The notes under the pieces are model-generated. The model did no database searches, had not been told where the DNA came from, and saw only the letters and a list, made by a program, of their open reading frames with translations. The position numbers were made by a program, and so were the translations under genes. 64,000 bases of DNA from Bacteroidota bacterium (GTDB lineage Bacteria > Bacteroidota > JABWAT01), in assembly GCA_017303995.1 (NCBI GenBank), contig JAFLBE010000011.1, forward strand, positions 1-64,000. The letters are read 5' to 3'. Each line of letters starts with the position of its first letter. Position 1 is the stretch's first letter. Of the stretch, positions 33,441 to 39,859 are shown piece by piece.

Positions 33441-34319
33441 TCACTTTCCCTTCAGTTGTACTCTGAGCGCTTCTGCCTTTTCTTTTGACGGACTGAAACC
33501 AGGTTTGAGCTTTAGTGCTTTTTCAAAGGCCACAAGTGCATCTTTGGGTTTTCCGGCCGCTTGAAGTCCGTCTCCCAGGCTATCCCAAACATTCGGATCT
33601 TTGGGTGCCAGTTTTGCCTGTTTTTCAAATTTCTGAACTGCTTCGGCAGTTTTTTTCTGTTCGAGCAAGAAATAACCATAAGTGTTGTAAAACTGATATC
33701 CATCGGTTGAATCAACGAACGATTTGTCATAGGCTTTAAACTCTTCTTCAGCTTTGGCCGTTTTTCCGTCCTTGGAATAAATTTGAATGAAAAGCAATCG
33801 ACCTTGTTTTTCTTTGATTTTGGAAACTCTGGCAGCAAAGGATTTTGCTTTTTCAAGATCACCGCCAGCAACTGAAGGTGCCTGAGTATAAAAAGTGGTC
33901 AGTCCGATGAGTCCGCCAAGATGTTTGGGATCAAGTTCAACGGTTTTCTCAAATGCTTCAAGAATATCCGGCGCGAGAAACGCCTGCCGAACCATGTTTA
34001 CTTCTCTTATTTTACGACCAAGTGCCTGACCCAGCCAGAAATGGTGATCAGCCACTTTTGGATTTAAGTCAACTGCTTTCTCACAATACTCAACGGCATT
34101 CTCATAATCATCAATCATCAGATAAGACCGGCCGAGGTAATAATTTGCGGAAGCATCATCCTCATTTTCTTTTACTTTGGCTTTAAAAAACTGAATAGCA
34201 CCTTTGAAATCCTTTTTTTCAAGAAGCTGAATGCCTTTATCGAGGGGTGAGGCAGAGAAAGAAGGGGTAAAAAGAGTGAGCAGAAAAATGTTAAGTACGG
34301 GAATTAGTATTTTTTTCAC
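33441..34319 (-). CDS. Exported tetratricopeptide-repeat protein
   Basis: A 292-residue protein with signal peptide (about 1-22) and about six TPR units, for example DASANYYLGRSYLMIDDYENAVEYCEKAVDL (about 53-84) and DPNVWDSLGDGLQAAGKPKDALVAFEKAL near the end. TPRs usually act as protein-binding scaffolds; no partner is evident. It is divergent from the TonB receptor operon, across a 319-bp gap. Confidence 0.8.
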   Translation of the reverse strand: MKKILIPVLNIFLLTLFTPSFSASPLDKGIQLLEKKDFKGAIQFFKAKVKENEDDASANYYLGRSYLMIDDYENAVEYCEKAVDLNPKVADHHFWLGQALGRKIREVNMVRQAFLAPDILEAFEKTVELDPKHLGGLIGLTTFYTQAPSVAGGDLEKAKSFAARVSKIKEKQGRLLFIQIYSKDGKTAKAEEEFKAYDKSFVDSTDGYQFYNTYGYFLLEQKKTAEAVQKFEKQAKLAPKDPNVWDSLGDGLQAAGKPKDALVAFEKALKLKPGFSPSKEKAEALRVQLKGK

Positions 34320-34638
34320 GATGGAGTCCTTTTGAAAAGTTAAAACAGTTGTAAGCTCCTGACTGGAGCCAACTCTTTATTTCGTTTTATTTGAAAGTCT
34401 GCCCGATTTGGATGTGTTGTTTATTTGGTTGAGGCGATTTTTTAAAATTTAAACCTATATACGGATGTGGTTTCTATTAGGTTCAAAATGGGTAGTCAAA
34501 AGACTCATCCGGTTTCAAAATCAGTCAGCTGTTTCATGACATCAAAGTATTTTTTTCATTAAAAAACAGTTACCAGCTTGTTATTTATATAAAATCTAAA
34601 TAGCTTTGTTTAGATCAAATATAAATAAGGTTATCTCT
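34320..34638. other. 319-bp intergenic region before the haem-uptake-like operon
   Basis: A small hairpin GCTCC / GGAGC is at 34355-34369. AT-rich promoter-like DNA with TATATAA lies at about 34585-34591. An inverted repeat (next entry) follows. I looked for the B12-box of a cobalamin riboswitch and did not see it. Confidence 0.55.
34594..34615. promoter_or_regulatory. Inverted repeat ATCTAAA-N8-TTTAGAT upstream of TonB receptor
   Basis: Two perfect 7-bp arms 8 bp apart sit 23 bp before the likely GTG start, next to a TATATAA box. The location suits an operator for a metal- or haem-responsive repressor. It is not a recognisable Fur box, and no regulator is encoded nearby. Confidence 0.45.
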
Positions 34639-36753
34639 GTGGACACCCGACTTACAAAAACAACCCTTTGCGCTGTGTTCTTCCTATCGCTTTCTCTGAT
34701 TGTTTTCAACTTAATTCCTGTTGATCTGTTTGCACAGAAGCCTGATACGCTTTCCTTTGAAATGAAGGAAGATGTTCTTGTTACGGCAACCCGGTATGCC
34801 AGATCTGTTGAAACCACTTCGTTACCGGTTTCAATCATTAAGTCTGAGGATATCAAAAACGAAGGTTGCCTGACGCTGAAAGATATTCTTGAAACGGTGA
34901 ACGGCCTTGCCATTACTCAGGATCATGGAAGTGGTATTCAGATGGAAGGGCTAAGTCCGGAATACACATTAATTCTCATCGATGGACAGCCCGTCATTGG
35001 ACGAACTGCAGGAACTCTGGAGCTTTCCAGAATTTCAGCACTAAATATTGAACGGATCGAAATAGTAAGAGGACCCTCGTCCAGTCTTTACGGTTCAGAT
35101 GCACTTGCAGGAGTGATTAATATCCTCACCCGGTCACCTGAGAAAAATCAGCTATCATTTTCATCCCGGATAAGTTCAAACCAAAGTCAGTTGGTGCAGG
35201 GAGATGCCGGATTCAGTGCCGGGGAAGTGAATTCATCCCTGTCGGCAAGCTATCTGAATTCCGGAGGTTATGATCTTGATCCCTCAACCCGGGTTAAAAC
35301 CGTTGATCCATTCTCAAACTATACGCTCCATTTCAAATCGGTATTCCAGATTAATGATCGGGATAAGCTGATGGGTTCACTGCGAACTTTTTCAGAAAAA
35401 CAGAACCCATTTTTTGAAGTATCGGGGGATCCTGGAAATACAGATGTTTCGGGACAAGCCGTGACCACTGATTTCAGTGGAACTGCCGAATATTCAACCC
35501 AGTTTTTCGGAATGCTCAGGTCTACGCTGACTTACTATTATTCAACTTATCACACAAAAGAAAAACTGGTTTATCAGGGTACAGACAGTTTGTACGATGA
35601 ATCTGGATACAGGCAGGATCTGCATCGCCCGGAATGGTTTTCTTCACTGGTTTTGTCTCCTGAAAGTATTCTGAGTTTTGGTTTGGGATCCTCATTTGAA
35701 TCGGTTTCGGCAGACCGGTATGCTTCTGATAAAAAATACCGGAACGATTTCATTTTTGGTCAGGTGGATATGGCCGTTTTACCAGATTTGCAGGTCATTG
35801 GCGGACTCCGGTTTGACCACCCTTCCGTGTATGAATCCCAACTGAGTCCGAAATTAAGTTTCAGTTACCTTATCAACCCCATTTTTTCACTAAATGGATC
35901 TGCCGGAACAGGATTCAAAGCACCAGATTTCAGACAGCTTTACCTGACGTTCACCAATCCCGTTGCAGGTTACTCCGTTTTTGGTACCCACGAACTTGTG
36001 GGTGGGATCCGTCACCTTACAGCAAGTAATCAGATTGCAGCACTTTATTCTGATCCTGTCACCTTTTCAGACATCAAACCAGAGAAATCAATCGCCTTTA
36101 ATCTGGGTTTTAGTGTAAAAAAACAGGGAATCGCATCTGTAAATCTGAATTTTTTCAGAAATAATGTTTCAAATCTCATTGAAACCCTTCCGGTTGCAAT
36201 GAAAACAAACGGGGCAATGGTTTTCAGCTATACCAACCTCTCAGAAATTTATACCCAGGGGGCTAATCTGGAATCTACAATAAATCTTCCGGCGGGATTT
36301 GTTTTTTCTGCCGGATATCAGTTTCTGATGACTGCGGATAAATCAGTAAAACGACTTCTCACAGACGGAAAAGTATTTAAACGGGATCCGGTCACTCTGA
36401 TAACCAAAAAAGTAAACCCAGACGACTATGGCGGTTTGTTCAGCCGGTCAAAACATGCCGGACAGGCAAAGCTGACCTGGAAAGAACCTGAAGGAAACTG
36501 GAATGCCCACATTCAGATGACTGCCAGGGGCAGGTATGGGTTTGCTGACAAAAACGGAAACACTATTCTTGACGATGACAGTGAATACGTTCCGGGCTAT
36601 TTCCTTTTCAACGTGGCTGCAGGGAAGGATCTTTTTAACGGATTTCATCTTCAGGCCGGCTGTGACAACCTGACCGATTTTACAAATCCCGGACAAATTT
36701 CAGGAATTCAGGGCAGATATGTCTGGGTCAGTCTTGACTGGCAGATATTTTAA
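34639..36753 (+). CDS. TonB-dependent outer-membrane receptor (HmuR/haem or corrinoid type)
   Basis: A 704-residue receptor. The GTG at 34639 starts a good signal peptide (TTLCAVFFLSLSLIVFN...LFAQ) and has AAGG upstream; a TTG 11 codons earlier is less likely. Next comes a TonB-box-like EDVLVTATR, a plug domain (about 60-170) with ERIEIVRGPSSSLYGSDALAGVINI, then a 22-strand-type barrel ending WQIF. The downstream HmuY-like lipoprotein points to haem as substrate, although the plug also resembles BtuB. No B12 riboswitch is seen upstream. Confidence 0.85.
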   Translation: MDTRLTKTTLCAVFFLSLSLIVFNLIPVDLFAQKPDTLSFEMKEDVLVTATRYARSVETTSLPVSIIKSEDIKNEGCLTLKDILETVNGLAITQDHGSGIQMEGLSPEYTLILIDGQPVIGRTAGTLELSRISALNIERIEIVRGPSSSLYGSDALAGVINILTRSPEKNQLSFSSRISSNQSQLVQGDAGFSAGEVNSSLSASYLNSGGYDLDPSTRVKTVDPFSNYTLHFKSVFQINDRDKLMGSLRTFSEKQNPFFEVSGDPGNTDVSGQAVTTDFSGTAEYSTQFFGMLRSTLTYYYSTYHTKEKLVYQGTDSLYDESGYRQDLHRPEWFSSLVLSPESILSFGLGSSFESVSADRYASDKKYRNDFIFGQVDMAVLPDLQVIGGLRFDHPSVYESQLSPKLSFSYLINPIFSLNGSAGTGFKAPDFRQLYLTFTNPVAGYSVFGTHELVGGIRHLTASNQIAALYSDPVTFSDIKPEKSIAFNLGFSVKKQGIASVNLNFFRNNVSNLIETLPVAMKTNGAMVFSYTNLSEIYTQGANLESTINLPAGFVFSAGYQFLMTADKSVKRLLTDGKVFKRDPVTLITKKVNPDDYGGLFSRSKHAGQAKLTWKEPEGNWNAHIQMTARGRYGFADKNGNTILDDDSEYVPGYFLFNVAAGKDLFNGFHLQAGCDNLTDFTNPGQISGIQGRYVWVSLDWQIF

Positions 36754-36772
36754 CAAAAAACAAAGGAAAAAC

Positions 36773-37381
36773 ATGAAAAACAAACCGATCAGTCTTCTCA
36801 TTTTGCTTGCCGGAGTTTCTTTGACAGGACTTTCAGCCTGTGAAGATGACGCCACCTCAAGTGATGACAACGCACAAGCCGGTGCAGTGGTAAAAACCGT
36901 TAGTAATCTTGATGCAGACACAGCTTTAACTGGGAAATTCACCTTTTTCAGTTTTAAAACTGGTGAAAAAATTCCCAATTCTGACAGTGCCACCACGAAG
37001 TGGGATGTAGGGTTCAGGGGAACGACAATCATTCTTAATGGCGGAACCAGCGGACCCGGTCTGACAAAGGTGAAAATACTTTCCTCTCTGTTTGAAGACG
37101 TTACCCAGGCACCTGACTCGGGTTATGTGGCCGACCAGATGCCGGCAACTTATGCCATCCCCATCGGATCAGGTAAAGGGTGGTACACTTATGATTCTGG
37201 AATCAATCTGATTTCACCCATTGCAGGAAAGGTGTTTGTCGTAAAAACAAGCGAAGACCGGTACGCCAAATTTGAAATTCTGAGTTATTACAAGGATAAA
37301 GTGATTACTGAGCAACGAAAAAGCCGATATTATTTCTTGCGATATGTTTATCAGCCCGAAAATACTAAAATTTTTAATTGA
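36773..37381 (+). CDS. HmuY-family haem-binding lipoprotein
   Basis: A 202-residue lipoprotein with lipobox TGLSAC (Cys23). Residues 75-200 carry the HmuY pattern: KWDVGFRGTTIILNGGTSG, a central VFVVKTSEDRYAKFEI, and the end RYYFLRYVYQ. HmuY proteins take haem from host or environmental proteins and hand it to HmuR. This one contains no histidine at all and, after the signal peptide, only one Met (M123), so the His-His ligation of P. gingivalis HmuY is impossible. AAGGA lies 7 nt before the ATG. It sits 19 nt after the receptor gene. Confidence 0.8.
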   Translation: MKNKPISLLILLAGVSLTGLSACEDDATSSDDNAQAGAVVKTVSNLDADTALTGKFTFFSFKTGEKIPNSDSATTKWDVGFRGTTIILNGGTSGPGLTKVKILSSLFEDVTQAPDSGYVADQMPATYAIPIGSGKGWYTYDSGINLISPIAGKVFVVKTSEDRYAKFEILSYYKDKVITEQRKSRYYFLRYVYQPENTKIFN

Positions 37382-37395
37382 GGATATAAAGCTTT

Positions 37396-38307
37396 ATGGA
37401 AAAACTATTTCTATTCATCCTGTCTGGTGCCATTGCTTTTTCCTTTTCAGGCTGCAAACATAAGGGGGCATCAACCCATTCTTCATCCGGTAAAAAAATC
37501 GGACTGCTTTTAGTTAACCACGGATCACGGTCTGAAACCTGGAGAAATGCCCTTCTTGATCTGGAAAAACAAGTCACGGATTCCGTGTTGAAAGACGGAA
37601 AAATAACCGGAATTAAAACGGCCTTTATGGAATATACTGAACCTTCAATTGCGACAAGGCTGAAAGAATTTGATCAGGAAGGGTTTACTGATGTTGTCCT
37701 GGTTCCTGTTTTTCTAACGGTGAGTCCGCATACTTTTGATGATATACCAACTATTATCGGGCAGAAGGAAGACCCGCAATCCAAAGAAATGCTCAAACTT
37801 GAGAAAATTGAACGGTATACCCCAAAAGCAAGCATCCATATTACACCTATGCTCGATTTTACAAAAATCGTCAAGACTAACGTTCTCCGGAGGGTGAAAT
37901 ATCTGTCAGTTAATCCTGCTGAAGAGGGACTGGTTCTGATTGGTTACGGTGATGAAACCTACCACAAAGACTGGTTAAACCTGTTTGATGAAATCGGTAC
38001 TTACGTTAATGCAGAAAAAGGACTTGGTGCATTAAGTTCCGGTTGGTGCGGACATGTTGCAGGTTACAATTCAGACTCAACAACGGTGGCGATTGAACGG
38101 ATCTTACGGTTCAAGAAAAGAGCAGTTGTAGTGCCCGTTCTGGTGGCTCATGATGAAATGTTTCAGGTGAAAATCATTGGAGACGGTATCAATAAAATCA
38201 AAGATTCAAAAACGAGAGTCTTGTACAAACCCGATGCCATCCTTCCAGATTCGGAAGTCAGACAATGGGTTATTGACATTACCCGGCAATTTGCAGGAAA
38301 AATTTAA
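37396..38307 (+). CDS. CbiX/CbiK-like class II chelatase anchored as a lipoprotein
   Basis: A 303-residue protein in which the usual cytoplasmic tetrapyrrole metal-chelatase fold follows a lipoprotein signal with lipobox FSGC (Cys20). The N-terminal half has LLLVNHGSR (H42) and [16 protein letters not shown] (H112); the second half has [10 protein letters not shown] (H190), [10 protein letters not shown] (H220) and [11 protein letters not shown] (H252). These match positions where CbiK/CbiX hold Co or Fe. Known periplasmic CbiK of Desulfovibrio vulgaris binds haem, so a role in inserting or removing iron outside the cytoplasm is reasonable. It is 14 nt behind the HmuY-like gene. Confidence 0.8.
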
Positions 38308-38314
38308 AACAGAG

Positions 38315-38902
38315 ATGAGCATGGCTAGTCAATTTTTTCGTTCGCCTGCGTTCAGAAGAACCAATCACGCTTTGCACCGGGATATCGGCTATTTTGTTTC
38401 AGCTTTGATTCTAGTGTACTCAATTTCAGGGTTGGCACTGAATCACGTCGACGACTGGAATCCCGATTTTATTTTGAAAAAGACAGAAGTTCATCTTGAT
38501 AAAAAGTATGAAAAAGATAAAATCGGTCCAGCTGAAGTTCTGGAAATCAGTCAGAAGGTGGGAGAAACCAAGTTTAAGGTTTTTGATTTTCCCGTTACCG
38601 GTCAGATGAAAATTTACTATGATCAAGCAACTCTGCATCTCCATCTTGAAGAAATGACGGGAGTTTATGAGCAGATTTCACGGCGACCTCTGTTTTATGA
38701 GGTGAATGTTCTGCATAGGAATTCTCTGAAGGGCTGGAAGTGGGTTTCTGATATTCTGTCCATTCTTCTGATTGTCACCACTTTTACGGGTTTGTTGATT
38801 CTCAGAGGAAAATACGGATTTGCTGGAAGGGGAAAATGGCTGGTTTTAGCCGGGTTTCTAGTTCCGGCGGCCGGGGTGATGGCCTATAACTGGATTGGGT
38901 AA
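38315..38902 (+). CDS. PepSY-associated transmembrane protein
   Basis: A 195-residue inner-membrane protein. The longer frame reaches back into the chelatase gene, but ATG at 38315 or 38321 (MASQFF) fits best. Three to four hydrophobic segments (about 25-45, 145-165, 173-190) surround a periplasmic PepSY-like domain with VFDFPVTGQMKIYYDQ. The conserved RRTNHALHRDIGYF and ALNHVDDWNP, and the end RGKYGFAGRGKWLVLAG, are typical of PepSY_TM proteins found with siderophore and haem uptake. It may reduce iron or assist haem passage. Confidence 0.75.
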   Translation: MSMASQFFRSPAFRRTNHALHRDIGYFVSALILVYSISGLALNHVDDWNPDFILKKTEVHLDKKYEKDKIGPAEVLEISQKVGETKFKVFDFPVTGQMKIYYDQATLHLHLEEMTGVYEQISRRPLFYEVNVLHRNSLKGWKWVSDILSILLIVTTFTGLLILRGKYGFAGRGKWLVLAGFLVPAAGVMAYNWIG

Positions 38903-38912
38903 AGAAACAGAA

Positions 38913-38957
38913 ACGGGTTTGAATTTTCAGGATAAATGTCCCGGAATTCAAACCCGT
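38913..38957. terminator. Convergent hairpin between PepSY-TM and EamA genes
   Basis: A perfect 13-bp stem ACGGGTTTGAATT / AATTCAAACCCGT with a 19-nt loop occupies the 57-bp gap between convergent genes. The T-run is poor on both strands, so termination may be imperfect. Confidence 0.65.
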
Positions 38958-38959
38958 CT

Positions 38960-39859
38960 TCATTCCTTAAATTTCGTAATGATGATAACCGAAAGCACAA
39001 TAATTCCGCCACCGATCAGCATATTTAAAGTTAAGGGTTCCCCTAAAATGAAATAACCCAACAAAACCGCCACAATCGGATTGACATAGGCATAGGTTGA
39101 GACTTTTGCCGGTGTGCTCCATTTCAGCAAAAATACAAAAGCAGAAAAACCGATCACCGATCCGAAAATAACCAGATAAGCCCATGACAGCCAGCCTTCC
39201 GGAGTAACAGAAGCCAATGAAGCTGAAGCATATTCACCGGAAATCACTGAAAAACTCATCAGGAAAAATCCGCCGAACAACATTTGCATCGCTGAATTCA
39301 AATTCTGATTTGCCGGAAGGGGATTGTGTCTGGAATAAATCGAACCGGCTGCCCAGGAAGCTGTGGCAAAGATCAGAGCTGCGATTCCGGCAAGATTCAG
39401 ATGTTCATAATCCGCCAGTTTTTCGGGTCCGACCAGGAAAATGATACCCAGAAATCCAAGAAAAATGCCACCCATCACCGGTGGATGCAATTTCTTTTTA
39501 GCCGGACCGATCCGGTCAATTAAAACCATAAATAATGGAGTCGAGGTGATAATCAAAGCAGCAAAACCGGAATCCACTTTTTGCTCAGCCCAGCAAACTG
39601 CACCATTACCGCCAAGGAGCAGGAGAAGTCCGATCACAAGTGTTGATCTGACTTGTGGCCATGTTGGCAATTGAGCGCCCTGATACCAGGCCCATCCGCC
39701 AAGAATCAAAAAAGCAGTAATAAACCGGGTGCCCGCCATGAAAAACGGAGGAAAACTGGTGACGGCAACTTTAATTGCCAGATAAGTGGATCCCCAGATC
39801 AGATAGATGGCCAGAAAAGCCAGAATGATCTTCGTTCGGGATGGATGGGTTTCGGTCAA
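38960..39859 (-). CDS. EamA-family (DMT) exporter
   Basis: A 299-residue protein with ten predicted helices forming two EamA repeats (about 12-143 and 155-294). The opening LAIYLIWGSTYLAIKVAVTSFPPFFMAGTRF matches the YedA-type amino-acid/metabolite exporters. The start codon is TTG with AAGG some 10 nt upstream. Substrate unknown. Confidence 0.88.
   Translation of the reverse strand: MTETHPSRTKIILAFLAIYLIWGSTYLAIKVAVTSFPPFFMAGTRFITAFLILGGWAWYQGAQLPTWPQVRSTLVIGLLLLLGGNGAVCWAEQKVDSGFAALIITSTPLFMVLIDRIGPAKKKLHPPVMGGIFLGFLGIIFLVGPEKLADYEHLNLAGIAALIFATASWAAGSIYSRHNPLPANQNLNSAMQMLFGGFFLMSFSVISGEYASASLASVTPEGWLSWAYLVIFGSVIGFSAFVFLLKWSTPAKVSTYAYVNPIVAVLLGYFILGEPLTLNMLIGGGIIVLSVIIITKFKE

Follow-up and report, generated by a model that had tools for sequence, protein, structure and literature searches.

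An exported class II chelatase and its PepSY-TM partner in a candidate haem-iron operon

The operon

The 64,000-nucleotide stretch of a Bacteroidota genome considered here (contig JAFLBE010000011.1, assembly GCA_017303995.1; hereafter the window) carries at 34639-38902 four genes, all on the + strand, for a TonB-dependent receptor, an HmuY-family lipoprotein, an exported chelatase of the CbiX type and a small PepSY-TM protein. In this paper, we focus on a single question: what could four such genes be doing together? A sequence-only reading of the window had placed them in one tight operon, and coordinates, strand, Pfam matches and the short gaps between them (19, 14 and 7 bp) all agree. With a divergent gene on one side (33441-34319, -) and a convergent gene of the EamA type on the other (38960-39859, -), they form a self-contained operon, the probable end of which is an inverted repeat lying between the convergent genes, with a loop that exceeds the limit of the terminator scan and hence goes unlisted there. 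A scan for sigma-70 promoters found fewer matches than in shuffled sequence. The features are as follows.

34639..36753, + strand: TonB-dependent outer-membrane receptor; GTG start, with TTG at 34606 as an alternative; PF00593, PF07715
36773..37381, + strand: HmuY-family lipoprotein, Cys23; PF14064; closest solved relative 8B6A
37396..38307, + strand: exported class II (CbiX-type) chelatase lipoprotein, Cys20; PF01903, alignments with CfbA and SirB, fold model
38315..38902, + strand: small PepSY-TM inner-membrane protein; PF16357, PF03929, alignment, model; 3' of the chelatase gene in 39/39 loci
34583..34601, strand not given: weak Fur-box-like palindrome, ATTTATATAAAATCTAAAT; 14/18 against ATTTAGAATnATTCTAAAT
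38913..38957, strand not given: inverted repeat with 13-bp arms, ACGGGTTTGAATT / AATTCAAACCCGT, read directly from the sequence

The chelatase and its partner

Chelatases of this kind ordinarily insert metal into haem-like rings within the cell. The one described here, at 303 residues, matches PF01903 (CbiX) with 54.5 bits (cut-off 22). Its lipoprotein signal ends in SFSGC, with basic residues after Cys20, and in an alignment of 31 relatives conservation of this Cys reaches at least 90%; the lipobox claimed from the sequence alone thus holds. The chelatases of Nitrospira and of loci L031/L032, L042 and L043 have what resembles an ordinary secretion signal with no lipobox; what all share is therefore export, whereas the lipid anchor varies. 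The metal site, His42/Glu79/His112, is invariant among the same relatives and aligns with His10/Glu43/His76 of SirB and with His9/Glu42/His75 of CfbA, the latter described as a metal site (PMC11301274). An AlphaFold model (pLDDT 85.6) has the two-domain class II chelatase fold, matching SirB, DR2241, bacterial ferrochelatases (HemH), CbiK and CfbA at E values of 1e-7 to 1e-4, and also the periplasmic CbiK of Desulfovibrio vulgaris (2xvx).

Alignments with CfbA and SirB reach only the N-terminal half of the protein. Its C-terminal half has invariant or nearly invariant motifs of its own (Tyr184-Gly-Asp, Trp-Cys-Gly-His220 and Ala-His252-Asp-Glu). Because it scores under the cut-offs of the NCBIfam sirohydrochlorin chelatase models (64.6 bits, confined to the N-terminal half, against the 120 of the CfbA model NF033198) and under that of the CbiK family (16.3 bits against the 26.2 of PF06180), the chelatase is, by these sequence scores, a separate branch of the class II family.

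The gene that follows encodes a match to PF16357 (PepSY_TM_like_2; 44.4 bits, cut-off 27) and to PF03929 (PepSY_TM; 33.0 bits, cut-off 28.8). His21, His44 and His134 are invariant in the alignment of its relatives, and its model has three long helices of transmembrane (TM) type around a beta domain. The distribution of charge predicts a cytoplasmic N-terminus, which would put His44 and His134 at the periplasmic face. FoxB and other PepSY_TM proteins, which have four TM helices, hold two haems by His at both membrane faces and act as periplasmic reductases of ferric siderophores (PMC13038864); a dimer of the protein described here could resemble one FoxB and supply the remaining haem-ligand His. 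A fold search with the model returned nothing at E < 0.001, and a PDB profile search was also empty.

Conservation of the pair

Our scan of 85,000 species genomes found 39 loci (handles beginning with L; genomes, G), a few of them second contigs of one assembly, that span Bacteroidota, Chlorobiota (Chloroherpetonaceae), Nitrospirota (Nitrospira), Verrucomicrobiota, Planctomycetota and Acidobacteriota. The PepSY-TM gene stands directly after the chelatase gene in every one, so that the pairing occurs in at least six bacterial phyla. A TonB receptor lies near the chelatase in 26 of the loci, as judged by neighbour clustering, and HmuY in 22 (20 of them by clustering, the other two being L018 and L043, with Pfam confirmation on representatives), often as two genes per locus and sometimes with a type IX secretion tail; beyond these two, every other neighbour family is confined to six loci or fewer. 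The chelatase and the PepSY-TM protein are the conserved core, then, and HmuY and the receptor are variable. The grouping is far beyond chance, because the pair is intact in 39/39 loci and because the window's genome has a single HmuY gene, 14 bp from its single copy of this chelatase. The three genomes closest to that of the window lack both. That the genes stay together in related genomes, on which the sequence-only reading depended, is supported by the neighbourhood search.

We also considered horizontal transfer and set it aside. The chelatase tree places the window without support, and although its Bacteroidota rows need at least two label changes by the starred branches, such changes are no more than suggestive, since bins may contain contaminants.

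Iron regulation

Inspection of the upstream regions first suggested a 19-bp palindrome, ATTTAGAATnATTCTAAAT. Scanned at a threshold of at least 14 matches in 18, it has 24 sites in the 160 bp that precede the operon, spread over 21 of 37 loci, against 0.14 expected from its density elsewhere, and it is present in 10 of the 23 loci outside the set that defined the motif. Only after it had been derived did we find that the same 19-mer, ATTTAGAATTATTCTAAAT, is the gel-shift-tested Fur box of Riemerella anatipestifer, a variant of which stands at hmuR (PMC5609570). For the operon family, sequence comparison thus places a Fur box just upstream. In L030 a box precedes fur-feoA-feoB by about 80 bp, upstream of the chelatase, and in the Nitrospira locus L028 TGAGAATAATTATCA, which differs from the classical Fur box at a single position, lies directly before tonB. 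Among the iron-related neighbours, a DtxR-type regulator and flavodoxin are encoded at L018 and in the L061-L065 group, and ExbB-ExbD-TonB at L062. Conserved Fur boxes together with neighbouring iron genes therefore mark an iron-acquisition operon.

The window's own site, ATTTATATAAAATCTAAAT, lies 56 bp before the receptor start; its right half-site is perfect and it ranks second in the 64-kb window. It escapes detection at up to three mismatches and is not significant alone, and we find it credible because relatives carry strong boxes at the same place. An overlapping operator, ATCTAAA-N8-TTTAGAT at 34594-34615, was dropped in favour of the Fur-type box because it is not commoner than in a control (20 near-matches per strand genome-wide against 36 for the reversed sequence) and is not shared by relatives. 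The fur gene itself adjoins feoB, away from the operon. Elsewhere in the same genome (L093:4460-4527, on contig 34), two close Fur-box-like sites precede a porin/FMN-binding/ApbE cluster, likely another of its iron-regulated reductase clusters.

The cargo

Haem is the likeliest cargo, and we favour it because of HmuY and because of haem-degrading monooxygenase neighbours: an HmuQ/IsdG-like enzyme (ABM domain) is encoded immediately 5' to the chelatase in two loci, L023 and L027, and, by clustering only, apparently beside it in L043. With the Fur boxes and iron neighbours, these support the earlier description of a haem-uptake-like operon. The receptor (PF00593, 139.1 bits; PF07715, 77.5 bits) resembles both the B12 model TIGR01779 (154 bits) and the haemin model TIGR01785 (117 bits) and is far under both cut-offs. 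Its best score is against the B12 model, yet we have rejected a role in B12: no cobalamin riboswitch was found in the window or in five relatives, and no cobalamin gene family recurs among the neighbours of the 39 loci.

The window's HmuY matches its family, PF14064, with 52.3 bits (cut-off 27), and its lipobox, LSAC with Cys23, is followed by EDDATSSDD as read from the sequence. In Bacteroidota, acidic residues following the lipoprotein Cys favour sorting to the cell surface, and by that rule and the residues after each Cys, HmuY probably sits outside, whereas the chelatase, with its basic residues, probably faces the periplasm. The closest solved relative of this HmuY is 8B6A (HmuY-Bf-2; E 2.4e-9), which has been grouped with homologues that bind haem or protoporphyrin without coordinating iron (PMC12106395).

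The same genome encodes HemB, FeoB and Fur and, by its HemB, probably makes its own haem. No CobN/HmuS homologue (PF02514) was found in it, and the family is likewise absent from 29 of the 32 other chelatase genomes, the exceptions being three genomes of the Chlorobia group, G007, G172 and G405; this agrees with the sequence-only suggestion that a class II chelatase takes the position of HmuS. FeoB is encoded in 30 of 32 chelatase genomes.

Discussion

We put at roughly 0.55 the probability that these genes are a Fur-controlled system for acquiring iron from haem. The data that bear on it are gene content, export signals, conservation of the metal site, fold, the pairing of chelatase with PepSY-TM, the Fur-type boxes and the iron neighbours; from these we infer haem as the substrate, the direction of the reaction, the transfer of electrons and the handover to FeoB. 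Haem, or an iron-tetrapyrrole like it, would enter the periplasm through the receptor, and HmuY would help at the surface or by binding porphyrin. The exported chelatase would hold the tetrapyrrole and remove its iron, a ferrochelatase-type reaction run in reverse, while the PepSY-TM protein would pass electrons from the inner membrane to reduce the haem iron on the chelatase, so that Fe(II) leaves. FeoB, encoded elsewhere beside fur, would then take it up. The sequence-only reading had allowed for removal or insertion of a metal; removal now looks likelier, iron is the best reading of the metal given the Fur box and the iron neighbours, and cobalt insertion is without support.

The nearest precedent is the hmuYRSTUV system of Bacteroides and Porphyromonas (PMC12583661, PMC10100974, PMC13227078), which likewise joins a receptor, HmuY and an extracytoplasmic tetrapyrrole chelatase, and in which HmuS acts on haem under reducing conditions and FeoB imports the Fe(II), as we propose here. 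HmuS, a periplasmic class I chelatase, needs a supply of electrons to convert haem to Fe(II) and protoporphyrin, and the donor that serves it in nature is unknown (PMC12583661, PMC13227078). The earlier note was right about an extracytoplasmic chelatase, but export is a weaker contrast with HmuS than it seems, HmuS being periplasmic too (PMC12583661, PMC13227078). The differences lie elsewhere: HmuS is CobN/ChlH-like, has about 1470 residues and is anchored in the inner membrane, whereas ours is a far shorter class II lipoprotein, and the operon has a dedicated PepSY-TM partner and no HmuTUV.

With the sirohydrochlorin chelatases CbiX, SirB and CfbA our protein shares the class II fold, the His-Glu-His metal site and its Pfam CbiX match; unlike them, it is exported, has its own C-terminal half with invariant motifs and scores far under the NCBIfam equivalog cut-offs. 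It resembles the periplasmic CbiK of D. vulgaris as an exported class II chelatase linked to haem, but it scores below the cut-off of the CbiK family, and we found no published link of that CbiK to PepSY-TM, HmuY or a Fur box. The partner belongs with FoxB, HiuB and other PepSY_TM ferrisiderophore reductases (PMC13038864) by family, by conserved His predicted to lie at membrane faces and by a co-encoded TonB receptor; it differs in being half their size (195 aa), in having one PepSY-type domain and in being paired with a chelatase rather than acting on siderophores. The parts, in short, are of known kinds, and combination, export and regulation set the system apart; what is new is an enzyme class unrelated to HmuS with a fixed PepSY partner, not export alone. 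We found no description of a chelatase/PepSY-TM pairing and no open-access paper with both PepSY and sirohydrochlorin, which is not proof of novelty; open-access literature on HmuY, CbiX and chelatase yielded only HmuS-type systems. More tentatively, and as a claim we would stop just short of betting on, a class II chelatase may have become, independently, an envelope haem de-chelatase with its own PepSY-TM donor, and so a counterpart of the class I enzyme HmuS, a two-protein, ring-sparing route in six phyla of mostly environmental bacteria.

Several points count against us. The known relatives of the chelatase insert metal. The window's HmuY, past its signal peptide, has no His and one Met, lacks the paired haem-iron ligands and therefore cannot bind haem iron as the HmuY of Porphyromonas gingivalis does. 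Seventeen of the 39 loci, some on truncated contigs, have no HmuY nearby; the receptor reaches the cut-off of no haem-receptor model; and the PepSY-TM model has three TM helices, not four, and no fold match to FoxB. The window's Fur-like site is weak (14/18). FeoB is missing from two Nitrospira genomes that carry the system, and another importer must therefore serve there.

One might instead imagine that the exported chelatase was once an enzyme but now only binds periplasmic haem and hands it on intact, while the PepSY-TM protein keeps the iron reduced. The periplasmic CbiK of D. vulgaris, whose structure is among the fold matches, is described, in work cited in PMC11301274, as a haem-binding protein evolved from a cobaltochelatase. 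A mere binder, however, would not need the full catalytic triad and the several surrounding motifs that are invariant, no inner-membrane haem transporter of the HmuTUV type is among the conserved neighbours, and a genome that probably makes its own haem fits poorly; we consider this unlikely. We are more doubtful that the cargo is a siderophore or other iron chelate, reduced by the PepSY-TM protein in the manner of FoxB, with the chelatase-fold lipoprotein binding the freed iron. Receptor plus PepSY-TM is a known xenosiderophore arrangement, the receptor's likeness to both B12 and haemin models reaches neither cut-off, and the loci without HmuY would suit such a scheme, but HmuY in 22 loci and the monooxygenase in three point to haem, and a strictly conserved tetrapyrrole chelatase would make an odd iron carrier. 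Improbable, finally, is the metallation at the envelope, with iron or cobalt, of imported porphyrins or other metal-free tetrapyrroles, even though this is the enzyme class's normal direction, seen in CbiX, SirB and CfbA, and even though the closest solved HmuY relative is in a group that binds protoporphyrin without iron coordination: Fur-type control and iron-uptake neighbours fit the scavenging of iron, not the spending of it, no cobalamin riboswitch was found in the window or in five relatives, and no cobalamin gene family recurs among the neighbours.

How bacteria remove iron from haem and spare the ring was long disputed, and HmuS settled one case in 2025. If haem-iron acquisition is indeed what these genes do, such scavenging extends to environmental groups, for example Nitrospira and probably green sulfur bacteria, for which we found no earlier consideration of it, and genes otherwise labelled cobalamin chelatases acquire a function. 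A candidate electron donor adjoins an unrelated chelatase in every locus found, which makes the donor question testable with two small proteins; whether ferrochelatase-type enzymes run backwards in cells becomes directly testable as well.

Variants of the locus

The genomes of one family of the same phylum (f8), probably Chlorobiaceae, as five CobN/BchH-type genes in one of them suggest, have two chelatases around one PepSY-TM gene, with ExbB-ExbD-TonB and receptors; some of them add a DtxR-type regulator that carries a FeoA domain, others flavodoxin. In L061-L065 (G172, G298, G148, G128 and G314), and also in L049, the two exported chelatases that flank the single PepSY-TM gene are divergent; L062 has ExbB-ExbD-TonB and the regulator with its FeoA domain nearby, L061 flavodoxin. 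Beside the chelatases of L062, a receptor-ABC-DUF4857 cluster is similar to BT3625-BT3633, a locus that iron induces in B. thetaiotaomicron by the description "iron-induced" (PMC10434189).

In Nitrospira the loci include a TonB gene, a receptor and an extra CbiX-like protein; this exported protein of 500-625 aa (L028:3967-5736, L029:3887-5764, L026:12876-14390) is encoded beside the receptor and has weak CbiX/ferrochelatase matches in each half. A DUF3793 gene directly follows the DtxR-type regulator at L018:12855-13487, L062:11409-12020 (both by Pfam) and L064:5703-6314 (by sequence likeness), and the family possibly has an iron-related function. Four Bacteroidota loci (L040:9476-9802, L015, L039, L044) encode a small DUF6686 protein with CxxC-like pairs between the PepSY-TM protein and the receptor. 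In G007 the chelatase operon adjoins a receptor and another PepSY-TM protein, larger than the first at 488 aa (L066:6417-7883).

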